Source: Bacteroidaceae bacterium
GTDB taxonomy: Bacteria; Bacteroidota; Bacteroidia; Bacteroidales; Bacteroidaceae
DNA length: 55,492 nucleotides
Direction of reading: 5' to 3'
NCBI GenBank assembly: GCA_017560945.1
Contig: JAFZDY010000045.1
Coordinates: 1 to 55,492 of the forward strand
A program made the position numbers and the translations under genes. This document shows positions 19,660 through 24,575 of this stretch, piece after piece. The notes beneath the pieces were generated by a model that saw only the letters and a program-made list of their open reading frames with translations, was not told the DNA's origin and searched no databases. The stretch's first letter is position 1. Every line of letters starts with the position of its first letter.

Positions 19660-20180
19660 CAGACCCACCCCCATCCCCTCCCTGTGAGGGAGGGGGGATG
19701 CCATACGGCGCGGTAAATTCTTCGGACGCAGATGACGCGGATGACGCAGATTTATTCTTTTTCTCCTCAATCATTTTTGTCATTTTGAGCGTAGCGACTA
19801 TACCTTAATGAAAAATAAAAGAGGTTTTGTTGAGCCTTTAGGGCGACTTGCTTGCTTGATGAGAGCTTTGCTCGAACTAAAAGTAAATCTGATTACGTGA
19901 ACTTTGGTAATGTATTGCTTACGTTCTCAGAAATATTTTTTAGGCACGGATTTCACGGATTGCGCGGTTTTTATAAATTCAAAATTTAAGATTCAAAGTT
20001 CAAGGTTCAAAGTTCAAGGTTCAAATTAGCAAGTCATTCATCAAGTCCTCCCTCACAGGGAGGATTTAGGTGGGTCTGCATATTTATCCGCGTCATCCGT
20101 GTCATCCGCGTCTAAGAAATGTCACGTCCCGCATGGCAAAAATCATAATTCACAAATCATAATTCATAATTCACAATAAA
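19660..20180. repeat. Mosaic intergenic repeat region, left flank of the SBP-SpoIIE operon
   Basis: About 520 nt without a gene, built from short repeated blocks. There is a G/C hairpin block (CCCCATCCCCTCCC...GGGAGGGG, 19670-19697) and a second (TCCTCCCTCACAGGGAGGA, 20046-20064). GACGCGGATGAC-type blocks sit at 19729-19750 with inverted copies at 20090-20113. TTCAAGG/TTCAAAG runs lie at 19990-20024, ATTAGCAAGTCATT at 20025-20038, and CATAATTCA units at 20144-20175. Related blocks recur at 1-45, 24390-24575 and 43223-43272. No transposase or ORF is visible. These look like recombining dispersed intergenic repeats. Confidence 0.75.
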
Positions 20181-20184
20181 TTCT

Positions 20185-20192
20185 TACCTTTG
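20185..20192 (+). promoter_or_regulatory. -7 box of the SBP-SpoIIE operon
   Basis: TACCTTTG, exact TAnnTTTG, 40 nt before the first start codon. It directly follows the CATAATTCA repeat units, so the -33 region is repeat sequence. An imperfect palindrome, TGTTTCACA-TG-TGTGTGACA (20199-20218), lies at the expected transcription start. Confidence 0.55.
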
Positions 20193-20232: not shown

Positions 20233-21177
20233 ATGAAGAAATACCTATGCCTGTTGTCCTTCGCGCTCGTATCCCTTCTCACGGGGTATGCGCAGAAGAT
20301 AACCTTCAGCCCTCAGTGGACACCTCAAAGCCAGTTTGCCGGCTACTATGCAGCCCTCGAGAATGGTTACTATGCCGAGGCTGGGTTGGACGTCACCATC
20401 GTACACCCCACCAACTCGTACAACTCCATGAACATGCTCACCGATGGCACGGCAGACATCATCACGTGCGAACTCATTCAAGCCATGATGACCACTGGCA
20501 AGGATGTCAACCTCGTGAACCTGTTGCAAACCACCCAGCACTCCACCCTCGTGCTCATTTCGCATAGTGGCGACGTGCGTCAGATGTCCGACCTTGCAGG
20601 GCGTCGTGTAGGCACATGGAAGGGAGGCTTTAGCGAAGTTCCCTACATGATTGACACCGAGGAGAAGTTGAACATCGAGTGGATACAGTTCATCACCCCT
20701 CTCAACATCTACATCTCGGGCGCCATCGATGCAGCCCTGGCAAAGAGTTACAACGAACTCCTCCTCTTCTACATGGCAGGTGTCACCCCTGGTAGCCTCC
20801 TCCAGTTCTCCCAGTTGGGGTACGACTACCCCGAGGATGGACTCTATGCCAACGAGAAGTTCTTCAAGCGAAACCCCGAGGCGTGTCGCAAGTTTGCCGA
20901 GGCTTCGCGCCGTGGATGGGAGTGGGTACGCGAGCATCGTGCCGAGGCTCTCGACATTGTCATGAAGTACGTCAAGGCCGAGAATGTCCCCACCAACGTA
21001 TACATTCAGAAGTGGATGCTCGAGGCCATACTCGAGGTACAGGAGGATGTCAAGGGTGAAGCACCCACCTACACCCTTGGTGTCGAAGACTTCGACCTGC
21101 TCAACGAAACATTGCTCAAGCATGGCTTCATATCCAAGCCCGTTGTTTACAAAAGATTTACAGGAGGTGACCAATGA
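20233..21177 (+). CDS. Orphan NMT1/THI5-like periplasmic substrate-binding protein
   Basis: Exported 314-residue periplasmic binding protein with signal peptide 1-20 (cleavage near LTGYAQ). It belongs to the NMT1/THI5-like (SsuA/ThiY-related) fold. The N-terminal signature QWTPQSQFAGYYAALENGYYAEAGL (split here as QWTPQSQFAGYYA, then ENGYYAEAGLDV) is the form also seen fused to signalling domains. There are no ABC permease or ATPase genes anywhere near; instead its stop overlaps the start of a sensor phosphatase (ATGA). I infer a ligand-sensing role for the phosphatase rather than import. The ligand is unknown; pyrimidine-, thiamine- or sulfonate-like compounds are bound by relatives. Confidence 0.85.
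   Translation: MKKYLCLLSFALVSLLTGYAQKITFSPQWTPQSQFAGYYAALENGYYAEAGLDVTIVHPTNSYNSMNMLTDGTADIITCELIQAMMTTGKDVNLVNLLQTTQHSTLVLISHSGDVRQMSDLAGRRVGTWKGGFSEVPYMIDTEEKLNIEWIQFITPLNIYISGAIDAALAKSYNELLLFYMAGVTPGSLLQFSQLGYDYPEDGLYANEKFFKRNPEACRKFAEASRRGWEWVREHRAEALDIVMKYVKAENVPTNVYIQKWMLEAILEVQEDVKGEAPTYTLGVEDFDLLNETLLKHGFISKPVVYKRFTGGDQ
21162..21170 (+). promoter_or_regulatory. Perfect Shine-Dalgarno at the SBP/phosphatase junction
   Basis: AGGAGGTGA, fully complementary to the usual 16S rRNA 3' end, lies 3 nt before the ATG at 21174, inside the last codons of the binding protein (encoding GGD). Such sequences are rare ahead of genes here, and this one coincides with an ATGA start/stop overlap. Confidence 0.6.
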
Positions 21178-23096
21178 AACTATTCAACTTTAAACCCAAA
21201 AGAACCATCTCGGGTCGTCTCATGACCCGCGTCCTCATCGTATCGGCTTTCATCTTCACCCTCACGTTTGCCTTCTTCCTGCACATGTCGGCCAAGAAGA
21301 TGAGGGAAGAGGCCGTCCATCGTGCCCATAGCGAACTCTCCAACACCATCCATCAGATCGATGCTGTGCTCCGCTCTGTGGAGGTGGCCGTGGAGAACAC
21401 CGCGTGGATAGTCCCCCATCGTCTGGCGTCGCCCGAGTACTTGTACGATGTCACCCGTCGCCTGCTTCAAAACAACGACTTTATTTGCGGGTGTGCCGTA
21501 GCCTTCGAGCCCAACTATTTCCCCACTCAGGGACACTACTTCTCGCCCTACTCCTATCGTGGCGAGGATGGCGAAATCCACTCCATGCAACTGGGAACCG
21601 ACTCCTACGACTATCACCACATGGATTGGTATCAGATTCCCAAACTCCTCGACAAGCCCTACTGGAGCGAACCCTACTACGACGATGGTGGTGGCGAGCA
21701 GATGATGTCCACATACTCCGTGCCCCTGTACGATGCCGAGGGACGCTTCTACGCCATCATCACCGCCGACCTCTCCCTCGAGTGGCTCACCGAGTTGGTA
21801 GGTAACATCAAGGCTTTCGACCGTGCTTATAACCTCATGGTTAGTCGCAATGCCTCCTACATTGTCCACCCCGATCGTGACCTCATCCTCAACGAGACCA
21901 TCTTCTCCTCCACCTATGGCGACGAGGACGAGTCGCTCGCAAAGTTGCAGGACGACATTGTCAATGGCCGTGCAGGCGAGGTACTCCGCACCAGGGAGGA
22001 TGGCAAGTTCTTCGTCTTCTACTCACCCGTGGAGACCACCCAGTGGACGGTAGCTATCATGTGTCCCCTCGGTGAACTTTACCTCGAGGCCAAGACCCTT
22101 CGCGACATGCTCATTGTCCTTGGTGTCTTTGCCCTTTTGCTGATGGTCATCCTCAATCACAATGGTATTCGCAAGGTGGTAGCCCCTGTAGAGAAGTTTG
22201 CCCACGTGGCCAAGGAGATAGCCAATGGCGACTTCAATGCCACCCTGCCCGAGATACGTTCGAACGACGAACTCAAGCACCTGCACGACTCCTTCGAGTA
22301 CCTCCAGCACTCCCTGGTACGGTACATCGACGAACTACAGGTTACCACCGCCAACAAGGAACGCATCGAAAGTGAACTACGCATTGCCCACGGCATTCAG
22401 ATGGGAATGATTCCCAAGATATTCCCTCCCTTCCCCGAGCGCGACGACCTCGCACTCTTTGCCAAACTCGTACCCGCCAAGGAGGTAGGTGGCGACCTCT
22501 ACGACTTCTTCATCGAGGACGAGAAACTCTACTTCATCATTGGCGACGTATCGGGCAAGGGTGTCCCCGCCTCGTTGGTGATGGCAGTTACCTGTCGTCT
22601 CTTCAGGTCGGTGGCCTCGCACTTCAGCAAGCCCGAGGATATCATCTCCTCCCTCAACGACTCCCTGGCCGATGGCAACGACTCCAACATGTTCTGCACC
22701 GCCTTCCTCGGCATACTCGACCTCAGGACAGGCCAACTCCAGTACTGCAATGCGGGACACAATGCCCCCCTCACCATCGACGCACAGGGCCACGTAGCCC
22801 TCGTGGATGTGGTGCCCAACCTCCCCTTGGGACTCTTTGAAGGCTTCCCCTACGAGGGTCAGCAGACCATGCTCGACAAGGGTACCATGCTCTACATGTT
22901 CACCGATGGCGTGAGCGAGGCCGAGAACCCCGATAAGGAACTCTTTGGCGACGATCGCCTCACCCAGTTGTTGCAGGAGTGTGCCACCCTCGAGCCCCAC
23001 GCCCTTGTGGAGGAAACCTTTGCACAAGTGAAGCGCCACGCCAACGGAGCCGAACAGAGCGACGACATCACCGTCATGTGTTTGAAACATTGTTAG
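21174..23096 (+). CDS. Cache-HAMP-SpoIIE (PP2C) sensor phosphatase
   Basis: Inner-membrane serine/threonine phosphatase of the RsbU/SpoIIE class. The 640 residues comprise TM1 (about 18-39), an extracytoplasmic dCache domain (about 40-308), TM2 (about 310-327), HAMP (about 328-385), a short helical linker and a PP2C domain (about 425-638). The phosphatase metal ligands are visible: D441 in GGDLYDF, D458 in GDVSGKG, D578 in FTDGVSE and D630/D631 in QSDDITV. In partner switching such enzymes dephosphorylate a STAS anti-anti-sigma protein. The preceding binding protein is translationally coupled and may present its ligand to the Cache domain. The next gene is the expected kinase-type partner. 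Confidence 0.92.
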   Translation: MKLFNFKPKRTISGRLMTRVLIVSAFIFTLTFAFFLHMSAKKMREEAVHRAHSELSNTIHQIDAVLRSVEVAVENTAWIVPHRLASPEYLYDVTRRLLQNNDFICGCAVAFEPNYFPTQGHYFSPYSYRGEDGEIHSMQLGTDSYDYHHMDWYQIPKLLDKPYWSEPYYDDGGGEQMMSTYSVPLYDAEGRFYAIITADLSLEWLTELVGNIKAFDRAYNLMVSRNASYIVHPDRDLILNETIFSSTYGDEDESLAKLQDDIVNGRAGEVLRTREDGKFFVFYSPVETTQWTVAIMCPLGELYLEAKTLRDMLIVLGVFALLLMVILNHNGIRKVVAPVEKFAHVAKEIANGDFNATLPEIRSNDELKHLHDSFEYLQHSLVRYIDELQVTTANKERIESELRIAHGIQMGMIPKIFPPFPERDDLALFAKLVPAKEVGGDLYDFFIEDEKLYFIIGDVSGKGVPASLVMAVTCRLFRSVASHFSKPEDIISSLNDSLADGNDSNMFCTAFLGILDLRTGQLQYCNAGHNAPLTIDAQGHVALVDVVPNLPLGLFEGFPYEGQQTMLDKGTMLYMFTDGVSEAENPDKELFGDDRLTQLLQECATLEPHALVEETFAQVKRHANGAEQSDDITVMCLKHC

Positions 23097-23130
23097 GAGA
23101 CTGATATTTTTTTTAAAAATAAGTATATAT

Positions 23131-23538
23131 ATGGAAAAGTCACTCATACTGGCAAACGATATTGCTGAAATCAGCAAACTTGCCACATTCATCGACGAGA
23201 TTGGCGAGGAGTTCTCCCTTGCGCCCGATGTAGTGTTCAATCTCAACCTCGTCCTCGAGGAGGCCGTGGTCAATGTCATCAACTATGCCTACCCCAAGGA
23301 GGAGCATCAGTCCATCTACCTCTCGGCCACCCTGCACGAAGGCTCCATCGTCTTCGTCCTCACCGACACAGGCAAGGAGTTCGACCCCACCCAGGCACCC
23401 GAGGCAGACATCACCCTCTCCGCCGAGGAGCGCCCCATCGGAGGCCTTGGCATCTTCCTCATCCGTCAGATCATGAACGAGGTGAAGTACCAGCGCATCG
23501 ATGGCAAGAATGTCCTCACACTCGAGAAGAAATTGTAA
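23131..23538 (+). CDS. RsbW/SpoIIAB-like ATP-binding protein (putative anti-sigma kinase)
   Basis: The 135-residue stand-alone GHKL ATPase domain is the size of RsbW/SpoIIAB/BtrW. The N box is LVLEEAVVNVINYAYP (41-55, Glu43-Asn48), G1 is DTGKEFDP (79-86), and the G2 loop is GGLGIFLIRQ (104-113). Such proteins bind and inhibit a sigma factor or another effector and phosphorylate a STAS antagonist. It follows the phosphatase by 34 nt, forming the phosphatase/kinase pair of a partner-switching system. No STAS protein or sigma factor is encoded within the window, so the target must lie elsewhere or be of another kind. Confidence 0.88.
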   Translation: MEKSLILANDIAEISKLATFIDEIGEEFSLAPDVVFNLNLVLEEAVVNVINYAYPKEEHQSIYLSATLHEGSIVFVLTDTGKEFDPTQAPEADITLSAEERPIGGLGIFLIRQIMNEVKYQRIDGKNVLTLEKKL

Positions 23539-23580
23539 TATGTAGGCACATAATAACTCTTTTTTAAACCAGTAAATCGT

Positions 23581-24264
23581 ATGAACAAACTCTTTTCATT
23601 CATGCTCCTCGCCCTTACCCTTGTGGCCTGCAAGCCCACTGGCGAGTCGCACAAGTCTGCCCTCGAGCAGGAACTCGAGCAGATAGGTCTGCAAAATGTA
23701 GCCGAGCAGATACCAGGCATCGAGGTCTATATGGTCTATGCCACCCCCTATAACTTCATGGGCAGAGTCCTCTACACAGGGCTCGACGAGGCCTACCTTG
23801 TGCCCGAGGCGGTGGAGAAACTCCGCAAGGCCAACGAACTCCTCCGTCAGCGTCGTCTCGACCTTCACCTCGTGGTGTACGATGCCGCACGTCCACGCTC
23901 CATCCAGCAACAGATGTGGAAGGTGGTGGAGAATACCGAACTTCAGGACTTCGTCGCCAACCCCAACAAGAGCGGTGGTGGCCCTCATAACTATGGCGTA
24001 GCCGTGGATGTCACCCTGGTCGATTGCACCGGTCACCCCATCCCCATGGGCTCCGAGTACGACTACTTTGGCGACCGTTCACGTGTCGACCTCGAGGACC
24101 AACTCATTGCCACAGGCGAAATCAACCAACGCGAGTTGCTCAATCGCCAACTTCTGCGCGACATCATGACCGAAGCCGGTTGGCTCGTCGAACCCTCTGA
24201 GTGGTGGCACTTCAATGCCATGCTCCTCACCGAGGCCAGCGAAAGACTGGAGGTGATAAAGTGA
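23581..24264 (+). CDS. Lipoprotein D-Ala-D-Ala dipeptidase, VanX/M15D family
   Basis: Predicted lipid-anchored periplasmic zinc dipeptidase. The 227 residues start with a lipoprotein signal (LVAC, Cys17). The M15D residues are in place: H136 and D143 in GPHNYGVAVDV, E207 and H210 in SEWWHF, and R104 in YDAARPRS (VanX R71 equivalent). VanX relatives hydrolyse D-Ala-D-Ala, which here would serve peptidoglycan turnover; no vanA/vanH genes are present, so glycopeptide resistance is not suggested. It ends the four-gene operon 42 nt after the RsbW-like gene, tying cell-envelope chemistry to the signalling genes. Confidence 0.87.
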   Translation: MNKLFSFMLLALTLVACKPTGESHKSALEQELEQIGLQNVAEQIPGIEVYMVYATPYNFMGRVLYTGLDEAYLVPEAVEKLRKANELLRQRRLDLHLVVYDAARPRSIQQQMWKVVENTELQDFVANPNKSGGGPHNYGVAVDVTLVDCTGHPIPMGSEYDYFGDRSRVDLEDQLIATGEINQRELLNRQLLRDIMTEAGWLVEPSEWWHFNAMLLTEASERLEVIK

Positions 24265-24389: not shown

Positions 24390-24575
24390 GGGTTAAATTC
24401 AAACTTCAAGGTTCAAAGGAGAAGGAGGAGAAAAAAACCGTGTCATCCGTGTCATCCGTGCCTAAAGAATTAGAGGAAAAAGAATCTGCGTCATCCGCGT
24501 CATCTGCAGATGAAAAATGTCATTAGCAAGTCATTTCACTCCCCTTCCTTGCGGAGGGGCAGGGGGAGGGTCCAC
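24390..24575. repeat. Mosaic intergenic repeat region, right flank of the SBP-SpoIIE operon
   Basis: Contains TTCAAGGTTCAAAG (24402-24418), CCGTGTCATCCGTG blocks (24437-24462), GCGTCATCCGCGTCAT (24488-24503), the exact 14-mer ATTAGCAAGTCATT (24522-24535) and a hairpin block CTCCCC...GGAGGGGCAGGGGG (24540-24566). The same block types lie at 19660-20180 on the other side of the operon. In the 20025 and 24522 copies the ATTAGCAAGTCATT block precedes a G/C hairpin block in the same order. Confidence 0.75.

Follow-up and report, generated by a model that had tools for sequence, protein, structure and literature searches.

A stretch of 55,492 nucleotides (nt) from a Bacteroidaceae bacterium (assembly GCA_017560945.1, contig JAFZDY010000045.1, positions 1-55,492; hereafter the window, with its contig denoted C44) contains an operon of four genes that encode an NMT1/THI5-type periplasmic binding protein, a membrane phosphatase with a Cache-HAMP-SpoIIE architecture, an RsbW-like serine kinase and a VanX-like lipoprotein. 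Comparison of these genes with the rest of the genome, which is 82% complete, and with the corresponding loci of relatives suggests that the operon is probably, if by no means certainly, the sensing part of a ligand-gated partner switch, the other parts of which would be encoded on other contigs and the outputs of which would be alarmone-type enzymes and transporters, not a sigma factor. The strongest argument for RelA/SpoT-type enzymes as the putative output is linkage, given that two types of these enzymes are joined to one and the same switch, with the order of the genes varying (loci L072, L074, L131, L132, L170 and L310).

The binding protein is paired with Cache-HAMP receptors

The relatives of the operon were analyzed in 151 genomes of Bacteroidaceae (the family sample) and 393 genomes of the order (the order sample). 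In addition, the best 80 of at least 553 relatives of the binding protein, referred to as the named loci, were compared, and the 70 of these that extend at least 2.5 kb downstream were used for most counts, with the presence of a neighbor scored within the stretch fetched around the binding-protein gene. The named loci are the closest relatives, so loci of the histidine-kinase types described below would rank lower.

The binding protein scores far above the Pfam NMT1 gathering score (118.7 against 20.5 bits), and relatives of it are present in 22 of the 151 family genomes, including that of the window. Of the 23 other Bacteroidaceae loci, 22 have a gene for a Cache-HAMP-type protein adjacent to the binding-protein gene, with a SpoIIE output in 14 and a histidine-kinase output in 8 (L044 and L046-L052; Pfam was used for L044 and BLAST for the others); the lone exception, G053, is a fragment. 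Among the best 80 named loci, SpoIIE is encoded by the next gene in 74, only a partial gene follows in 5, and one ends at a contig edge; where at least 2.5 kb of downstream sequence is available, Cache-SpoIIE is next in 69 of the 70, and the remaining locus, L060, holds a remnant. The ATGA junction of the two genes is retained in 57 of the 80. An earlier note on this DNA had staked its reading on the conservation of this linkage in related genomes, and the neighborhood search found the linkage conserved. Given that one type of binding protein is combined with two or more kinds of Cache-HAMP output, we infer an action on the Cache domain. The unit of binding protein and phosphatase, together with STAS, is found also in Phocaeicola barnesiae DSM 18169, whose minimal operon consists of binding protein, phosphatase, kinase and STAS, and in Prevotella sp. 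ne3005.

The genome of the window encodes a single NMT1 protein and four BPD-type permeases, the latter on contigs C54 and C1 and none on C44, so that a search of this genome detected no cognate ATP-binding cassette (ABC) permease adjacent to the binding protein. Thus, the description of this protein as an orphan with respect to its own type of transporter was correct. The broader statement that no transporter is nearby is not true of every relative: an amino-acid-type ABC ATPase is encoded in 21 of the 70 stretches, and directly upstream in 12 of these 21. By sequence, the solved structures nearest to the binding protein are ThiY (3ix1) and THI5; these thiamin-precursor proteins are too distant a match to name the ligand by homology. 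A predicted structure of the binding protein had a mean predicted local distance difference test score (pLDDT) of 69.7 and was not used.

Several loci deviate in minor ways. The Cache-HAMP histidine-kinase genes of L044 and L046-L052 often come as two in tandem, and the first of those in L044 has a HisKA region and no HATPase match. In L060 (1331-3271), the top relative of the binding protein (76% identity, among the best 80) adjoins only a 112-residue C-terminal piece of the phosphatase, and this copy looks decayed or misassembled. An apparent fusion of the binding protein and phosphatase in L034 (a 1005-residue open reading frame, ORF) proved to be an artefact of start choice, with the two genes in different frames.

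Phosphatase, kinase and STAS antagonists

All domains of the phosphatase are recognized by Pfam (SpoIIE, 3.3e-53; MCP-like_PDC_1, 1.1e-31; dCache_1, 2.1e-15; HAMP, 6e-8), and its catalytic motifs, GGD, DVSGKG, TDGV and QSDD, are intact. The earlier figure of 308 residues between the transmembrane segments was too large; by hydropathy, the distance is about 270. The RsbW-like protein retains the N (EEAVVN), G1 (DTGKEFD) and G2 (GGLG) boxes; it falls below the NCBIfam cut-offs for RsbW (49.2 against 145) and SpoIIAB (33.8 against 135). An RsbW-like domain is encoded in 52 of the 70 named stretches, and in 30 of the 80 named loci, the kinase is fused to the phosphatase in one chain. In comparison with locus L031, the ratios of nonsynonymous to synonymous substitution rates (dN/dS) of the binding protein, phosphatase and kinase, 0.17, 0.18 and 0.15, respectively, indicate purifying selection; against L061 and L076, saturation at synonymous sites leaves a usable ratio for the kinase only (0.06).

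The third component of a partner switch, a STAS protein, is missing from the window, as the earlier note stated, but not from the genome, nor from the relatives, where a STAS gene is present in 44 of the 70 stretches. A search of the genome identified two STAS-only proteins, on contigs C53 and C54, whereas a hit on C2 looks, by eye, like a SulP transporter. Both STAS-only proteins contain SSSGL, the motif with the phosphorylatable serine; the named loci contributed 50 STAS proteins, of which 45 matched a search for the SG motif, and 44 of these have S-S-G. On C53, the STAS gene directly follows a paralogue of the RsbW-like kinase (72.6% identical to the kinase in the window), and the pair lies between ligA and trmD (names assigned by eye). 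On C54, the order is a 290-residue protein with a RelA/SpoT domain, a permease with SBP_bac_3 domains, an ATPase and STAS. The phosphatase of the window may serve the C54 STAS protein.

Fusions of STAS with an APH-type kinase domain occur in 7 of the 70 named loci, all of them closer relatives of the gene in the window (the L031 fusion was recognized with Pfam STAS, Pfam APH and TIGR02172, the others with BLAST); STAS searches of the contigs found no such fusion in the genome of the window. Just before the binding-protein gene, L061, L062, L063, L067, L068, L070 and L076 encode a tyrosine-phosphatase-like Y_phosphatase3 protein, and six of these seven loci also hold a STAS-APH fusion.

RelA/SpoT enzymes and an HD hydrolase next to the switch

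In L072, genes for RelA/SpoT, permease, ATPase, STAS, binding protein, phosphatase and kinase follow each other on one strand, separated by 9, -8, 11, -1, -1 and 3 nt. The gene set of L073 is nearly the same, with STAS last; L069 and L076 carry the RelA/SpoT gene on the opposite strand. A different arrangement is seen in L131, where a synthetase, an HD hydrolase, an APH-type kinase, the binding protein and a fused phosphatase-kinase are encoded with gaps of -11, 1, -1 and 6 nt.

The RelA/SpoT proteins belong to two types, of about 350 and 290 residues, which form separate groups in a tree (support 88/99 and 84/29); support for the 290-residue group becomes firm (100/99) only when the tree includes the unlinked L189. 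The longer type keeps both the ATP-site motifs and the nucleotide-acceptor loop FGYxSLHY, and its best NCBIfam match is YjbM, below the cut-off (54 against 320). The C54 protein, a member of the shorter type, exceeds the RelA_SpoT cut-off (48.8 against 27 bits) and contains the ATP-site motifs RVKTLSS and EIQIRT.

The 350-residue synthetase was encountered in five of the initial loci, and a profile of it, run against the order sample, matched 35 places in 33 genomes, 8 of them strongly (E < 1e-160) and 27 more weakly; the neighborhoods of all 8 strong and 12 of the weaker places were inspected. SpoIIE, an RsbW-like protein and STAS are all encoded beside the synthetase in six of the eight strong places, and the remaining two, from one genus, have an ATPase and a permease in the vicinity. 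An HD hydrolase is encoded beside the synthetase in all eight, as determined by BLAST. None of these six kinds of genes (SpoIIE, RsbW, STAS, HD hydrolase, ATPase, permease) was found in the 12 weaker places, two of which lie on short contigs (3.9 and 7.2 kb); another weaker match is the C54 protein of the genome analyzed here, which does have STAS beside it. In a test within Bacteroidaceae, with 18 genomes picked through the profile search of the other group and one locus lost to a contig edge, switch genes are present in the fetched stretch at 9 of the 17 testable synthetase loci. In G081 (L314, 8224-9912), a single ORF of 562 residues encodes an HD_4 hydrolase followed by a RelA_SpoT synthetase domain; because the two domains share one ORF, the HD protein appears to be tied to alarmone turnover.

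Co-occurrence of the binding protein with the 350-residue synthetase in the 151 family genomes (12/22 against 6/129, Fisher 4e-8), and the same comparison limited to SpoIIE-type loci (7/15 against 11/136, Fisher 4e-4), were dropped, with kinship uncorrected in both.

A possible docking domain on transporter ATPases

The amino-acid-type ATPases linked to the switch consist of about 365 residues, of which about 120 lie beyond the ABC domain. In a profile comparison, this tail matched RsbW with a probability of 91.3, an E value of 9.5e-7 and a score of 43.6, whereas the controls, which comprised 20 shuffles, four unrelated profiles and two that were reversed, reached at most 19.8; an earlier run on a smaller set of sequences yielded a probability of 74.3 and an E value of 2.7e-5. 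In the AlphaFold model of the L073 ATPase (mean pLDDT 90.8; predicted template modeling score, pTM, 0.76), the tail (residues 243-364) is arranged as beta-alpha-alpha-beta-beta-alpha-beta-beta, which fits the RsbW/GHKL order of elements. Because the G1 and G2 boxes are gone, as judged by eye, the tail, a degenerate RsbW-like domain, is more likely to serve for docking than as a kinase.

The genome of the window encodes two such tailed ATPases, on C54 and C1, with one of the four BPD permeases beside each. Similar tails are carried by many amino-acid ABC ATPases of the order, among them L266 7128-9327 (on C1 of the same genome), G050, G088, G070, G117 and G113, and several tailed ATPases are single chains of permease and ATPase of about 720-1155 residues. 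A Foldseek search with the ATPase model gave no separate verdict on the tail, with ABC ATPases making up the best 50 of 1732 matches. The genome-level co-occurrence of HATPase_c_2 and the tail (strong scores in 22/22 against 221/393, Fisher 2e-6) carries little weight because the family is nearly universal (368/393), the threshold was chosen post hoc and kinship was not controlled.

Proposed mechanism and its alternatives

The following scheme would account for these observations. The periplasmic NMT1-type protein would bind a small molecule and dock on the dCache domain of the phosphatase, and HAMP would relay the signal to the SpoIIE domain. As suggested by the families and motifs of these proteins, the SpoIIE domain would strip the phosphate from STAS and the RsbW-like kinase would restore it. 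The likely STAS partners are the C53 and C54 proteins. Unphosphorylated STAS would then bind effectors other than sigma factors, most likely the C54 RelA/SpoT enzyme and the tail of the ABC ATPase; in relatives, an alarmone synthetase together with its HD hydrolase would be among the effectors, as would an APH-type kinase that is fused to STAS. More tentatively, and with somewhat less than even confidence, we suggest that this could be a Bacteroidales partner switch without a sigma factor that is driven by a ligand-loaded binding protein, sets an alarmone synthetase/hydrolase pair and gates amino-acid importers through the ATPase tail, in a stringent-type response to a nutrient outside the cell that is switched by serine phosphorylation of STAS. 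If the genomic link holds, gut Bacteroidales would use a partner switch to couple alarmone metabolism and the import of amino acids to a nutrient signal from outside, which would suggest a role for RsbW-like proteins in bacteria without an evident sigma-B-type target.

Several observations weigh against this scheme. The 290-residue group, including the C54 protein, reads FRPQRLN, and because the FGYxSLHY loop is lost, this protein may use a different acceptor and may not make (p)ppGpp; furthermore, L189, a member of the same group, has no switch neighbors, and neither do 8 of the 17 testable Bacteroidaceae synthetase loci. The binding protein is absent from all eight strong synthetase loci of the order, which makes it an optional front end, and in the eight histidine-kinase loci of Bacteroidaceae, SpoIIE is replaced. 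With regard to the ATPase tail, Pfam HATPase_c_2 matches only 1 of 10 copies (E 0.075), and RsbW or STAS is encoded near the tail in 3 of 34 loci from the tail searches, or in 5 of 38 once four other loci are counted, of which C54 and L032 have such a neighbor and L174 and L175 do not. The output genes that were scored are seen in 31 of the 70 named stretches, with none in the other 39. Also, because the genome is 82% complete, a sigma-type target may lie in its unseen part.

The pairing of contigs calls for the same caution. Together, the operon of the window and the C54 genes would equal the L072-type set. However, the genes of the window most resemble the cluster type of L060-L071, the binding protein being nearest to STAS-APH-type loci (62-76% identity, among the best 80), whereas the C54 genes are nearest to L073/L074 (RelA/SpoT, 78-79%; ATPase, 81% in L073). 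These identities point to remnants of two cluster types rather than one split cluster, and the two sets of genes may never have been one working unit. Both cluster types are present in one named genome, on contigs of the RGIG7312 isolate (L061 and L078).

Sigma-factor partner switches are the textbook case, as an excerpt of one account has it (PMC8256260), and the motifs of the phosphatase, kinase and STAS are all in place for one, such that the RsbW-like protein could be the anti-sigma factor for an unlinked alternative sigma factor and the alarmone and transporter neighbors would be incidental. The target need not be linked, and the 39 loci without another output gene are compatible with this possibility. 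We nevertheless consider it unlikely: the RsbW-like protein is far below the NCBIfam cut-offs for RsbW and SpoIIAB, and the genes linked to the switch are those of two RelA/SpoT groups and STAS-APH fusions instead of a sigma factor. Of the 92 unlabeled operon genes of the named loci, 82 were scanned; the 25 families inspected, those with the most matches ahead of 52 further families with one gene each, include no sigma-factor family, although no genome-wide search for sigma factors was made. Another possibility is a double role of the binding protein in transport and sensing, in which it feeds an amino-acid ABC transporter and also informs the phosphatase, with the switch gating the transporter only and the alarmone link secondary. 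The ABC ATPase in 21 of the 70 stretches, its RsbW-like tail, and the short permeases of L071 and L074, which match BPD_transp_1 only, all fit this explanation, as does the binding of an ABC ATPase by a STAS protein in MlaFB, in the excerpted account (PMC7367683). Conversely, 49 of the 70 loci have no such ATPase, the C54 permease has SBP_bac_3 domains of its own, and alarmone genes are linked to the switch without a visible transporter, for example, in L131, so that we find this explanation rather doubtful.

The envelope model of the earlier note, with the VanX-like lipoprotein as the route by which the output would reach peptidoglycan, appears highly improbable. M15 peptidases do recur near switch genes: apart from the window, they are found in L061 (82% identical, on the 5' side), L114 (10 nt after SpoIIE), L071 (a fragment) and L310, where the M15 gene lies 79 nt after the APH gene and there is no binding protein. 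However, a VanX relative is present in only 3 of the 70 named stretches, and among L060-L070 only in L061, which leaves the envelope output unsupported; moreover, a lipoprotein is extracytoplasmic and, therefore, would not directly bind STAS or the kinase. The protein has a lipobox (LVAC) and an EWWH motif, with the zinc-site motifs identified partly by eye, and falls short of the NCBIfam cut-offs for VanX (48.5 against 320) and the DdpX type (118.4 against 176). We treat its gene as a passenger or a late, lineage-specific addition outside the conserved operon.

Comparison with known systems

Partner switches also steer secretion systems, and SiaA has a membrane-receptor layout like that of the phosphatase described here. 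In SiaABCD of Pseudomonas, as presented in an excerpt of PMC8457831, the phosphatase SiaA and the kinase SiaB set the phosphorylation of the STAS-like SiaC, which switches a nucleotide second-messenger enzyme, the diguanylate cyclase SiaD; the same excerpt describes partner switches that steer diguanylate cyclases through STAS-type proteins. The system analyzed here differs in having a separate binding protein, a Pfam STAS antagonist, and linked RelA/SpoT-type and HD hydrolase enzymes, and its phosphatase scores 64.8 bits against the 700-bit SiaA equivalog cut-off. RsbU/RsbW/RsbV and SpoIIE/SpoIIAB/SpoIIAA comprise the same three families with the same catalytic motifs, whereas here the linked genes inspected include no sigma factor, the kinase is far below the cut-offs and phosphatase and kinase are fused in 30 of the 80 named loci.

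LuxP is a periplasmic binding protein that acts on a membrane sensor, LuxQ. Pairs of a binding protein and a membrane sensor are also formed by NspS-MbaA and by BctC-BctE, in the latter of which, according to excerpts of the literature (PMC9602780), the periplasmic protein acts, or is proposed to act, on the sensor. In contrast to these three systems, the output here is a SpoIIE phosphatase and the binding protein is of the NMT1 type. In MlaB-MlaF, a STAS protein is proposed, in the excerpt cited above (PMC7367683), to regulate an ABC ATPase; in the present case, the likely docking site would be the RsbW-like domain of the ATPase, and STAS belongs to a phosphatase-kinase switch. The small alarmone synthetases RelQ/YjbM share the RelA_SpoT domain and, with the 350-residue group, the ATP-site and FGYxSLHY motifs; the proteins described here differ in the extra C-terminal region, the linked HD hydrolase and APH-type kinase, and the association with a partner switch. 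Among the matches listed in openly licensed PMC papers, a scope that excludes subscription papers and bioRxiv, none describes this cluster or an alarmone synthetase controlled by partner switching.

Layout and surroundings of the operon

The four genes lie on the plus strand with a 4-nt overlap followed by gaps of 34 and 42 nt, as the earlier note placed them, and each ORF has Pfam support (Table 1).

Table 1. Features of the operon and its flanks in the window
Feature	Position	Strand	Remarks
Left intergenic repeats	D1 19977-20033; D2 20088-20120	+	
Candidate Bacteroidales -7 box, TACCTTTG	20185-20192	+	40 nt upstream of first start codon
NMT1/THI5-type periplasmic solute-binding protein, 314 residues	20233-21177	+	Pfam NMT1 4.6e-34; signal peptide by eye
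Membrane phosphatase, dCache-HAMP-SpoIIE/PP2C, 640 residues	21174-23096	+	4-nt overlap (ATGA) of its start with the binding-protein stop
First transmembrane-like segment, residues 20-38	21231-21287	+	Hydropathy
Extracytoplasmic dCache sensor region, residues 91-295	21444-22058	+	MCP-like_PDC_1 91-207; dCache_1 140-295
Second transmembrane-like segment, residues 309-327	22098-22154	+	Hydropathy
HAMP domain, residues 332-382	22167-22319	+	Pfam
SpoIIE/PP2C catalytic domain, residues 449-638	22518-23087	+	
HATPase_c_2 serine-kinase-like (RsbW-like) protein, 135 residues	23131-23538	+	Pfam 1.3e-26
Peptidase_M15 (VanX/DdpX-like) lipoprotein, 227 residues	23581-24264	+	Pfam 5.5e-25
Intrinsic-terminator-like stem-loop	24341-24369	+	12-pair stem and T-run
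Right intergenic repeats	D1 24397-24425; D2 24438-24470 and 24486-24518	+	Order and orientation same as left

The signals that were reported around the operon are there. The TACCTTTG box in front was called with the Bacteroidales -7 consensus; given that TANNTTTG has 49 matches on both strands of the window, against 36.8 expected, the box is weak evidence when taken alone. The stem-loop with a T-run is found behind the operon, although terminator-like sites are not enriched as a class in the window (5 found, 4.0 expected).

Among the clusters of relatives, Y_phosphatase3 accounts for 7 and TrkA_C for 5 of the 82 unlabeled operon genes that were scanned, and ion or dicarboxylate transporters recur in L034, L038, L042, L132, L134 and L310.

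The operon is bracketed by two repeats, D1 (TTCAAAGTTCAAGG-like) and D2 (GTCATCCGYGTCATCYG-like), within the intergenic regions 19728-20120 and 24397-24518. Their layout fits a possible insertion or relocation of the operon by recombination. In the 451,138 bases of this genome that were scanned (23 pieces), D2 occurs in only four places, all flanking the operon, and 15 additional D1 matches are spread over 5 other pieces.

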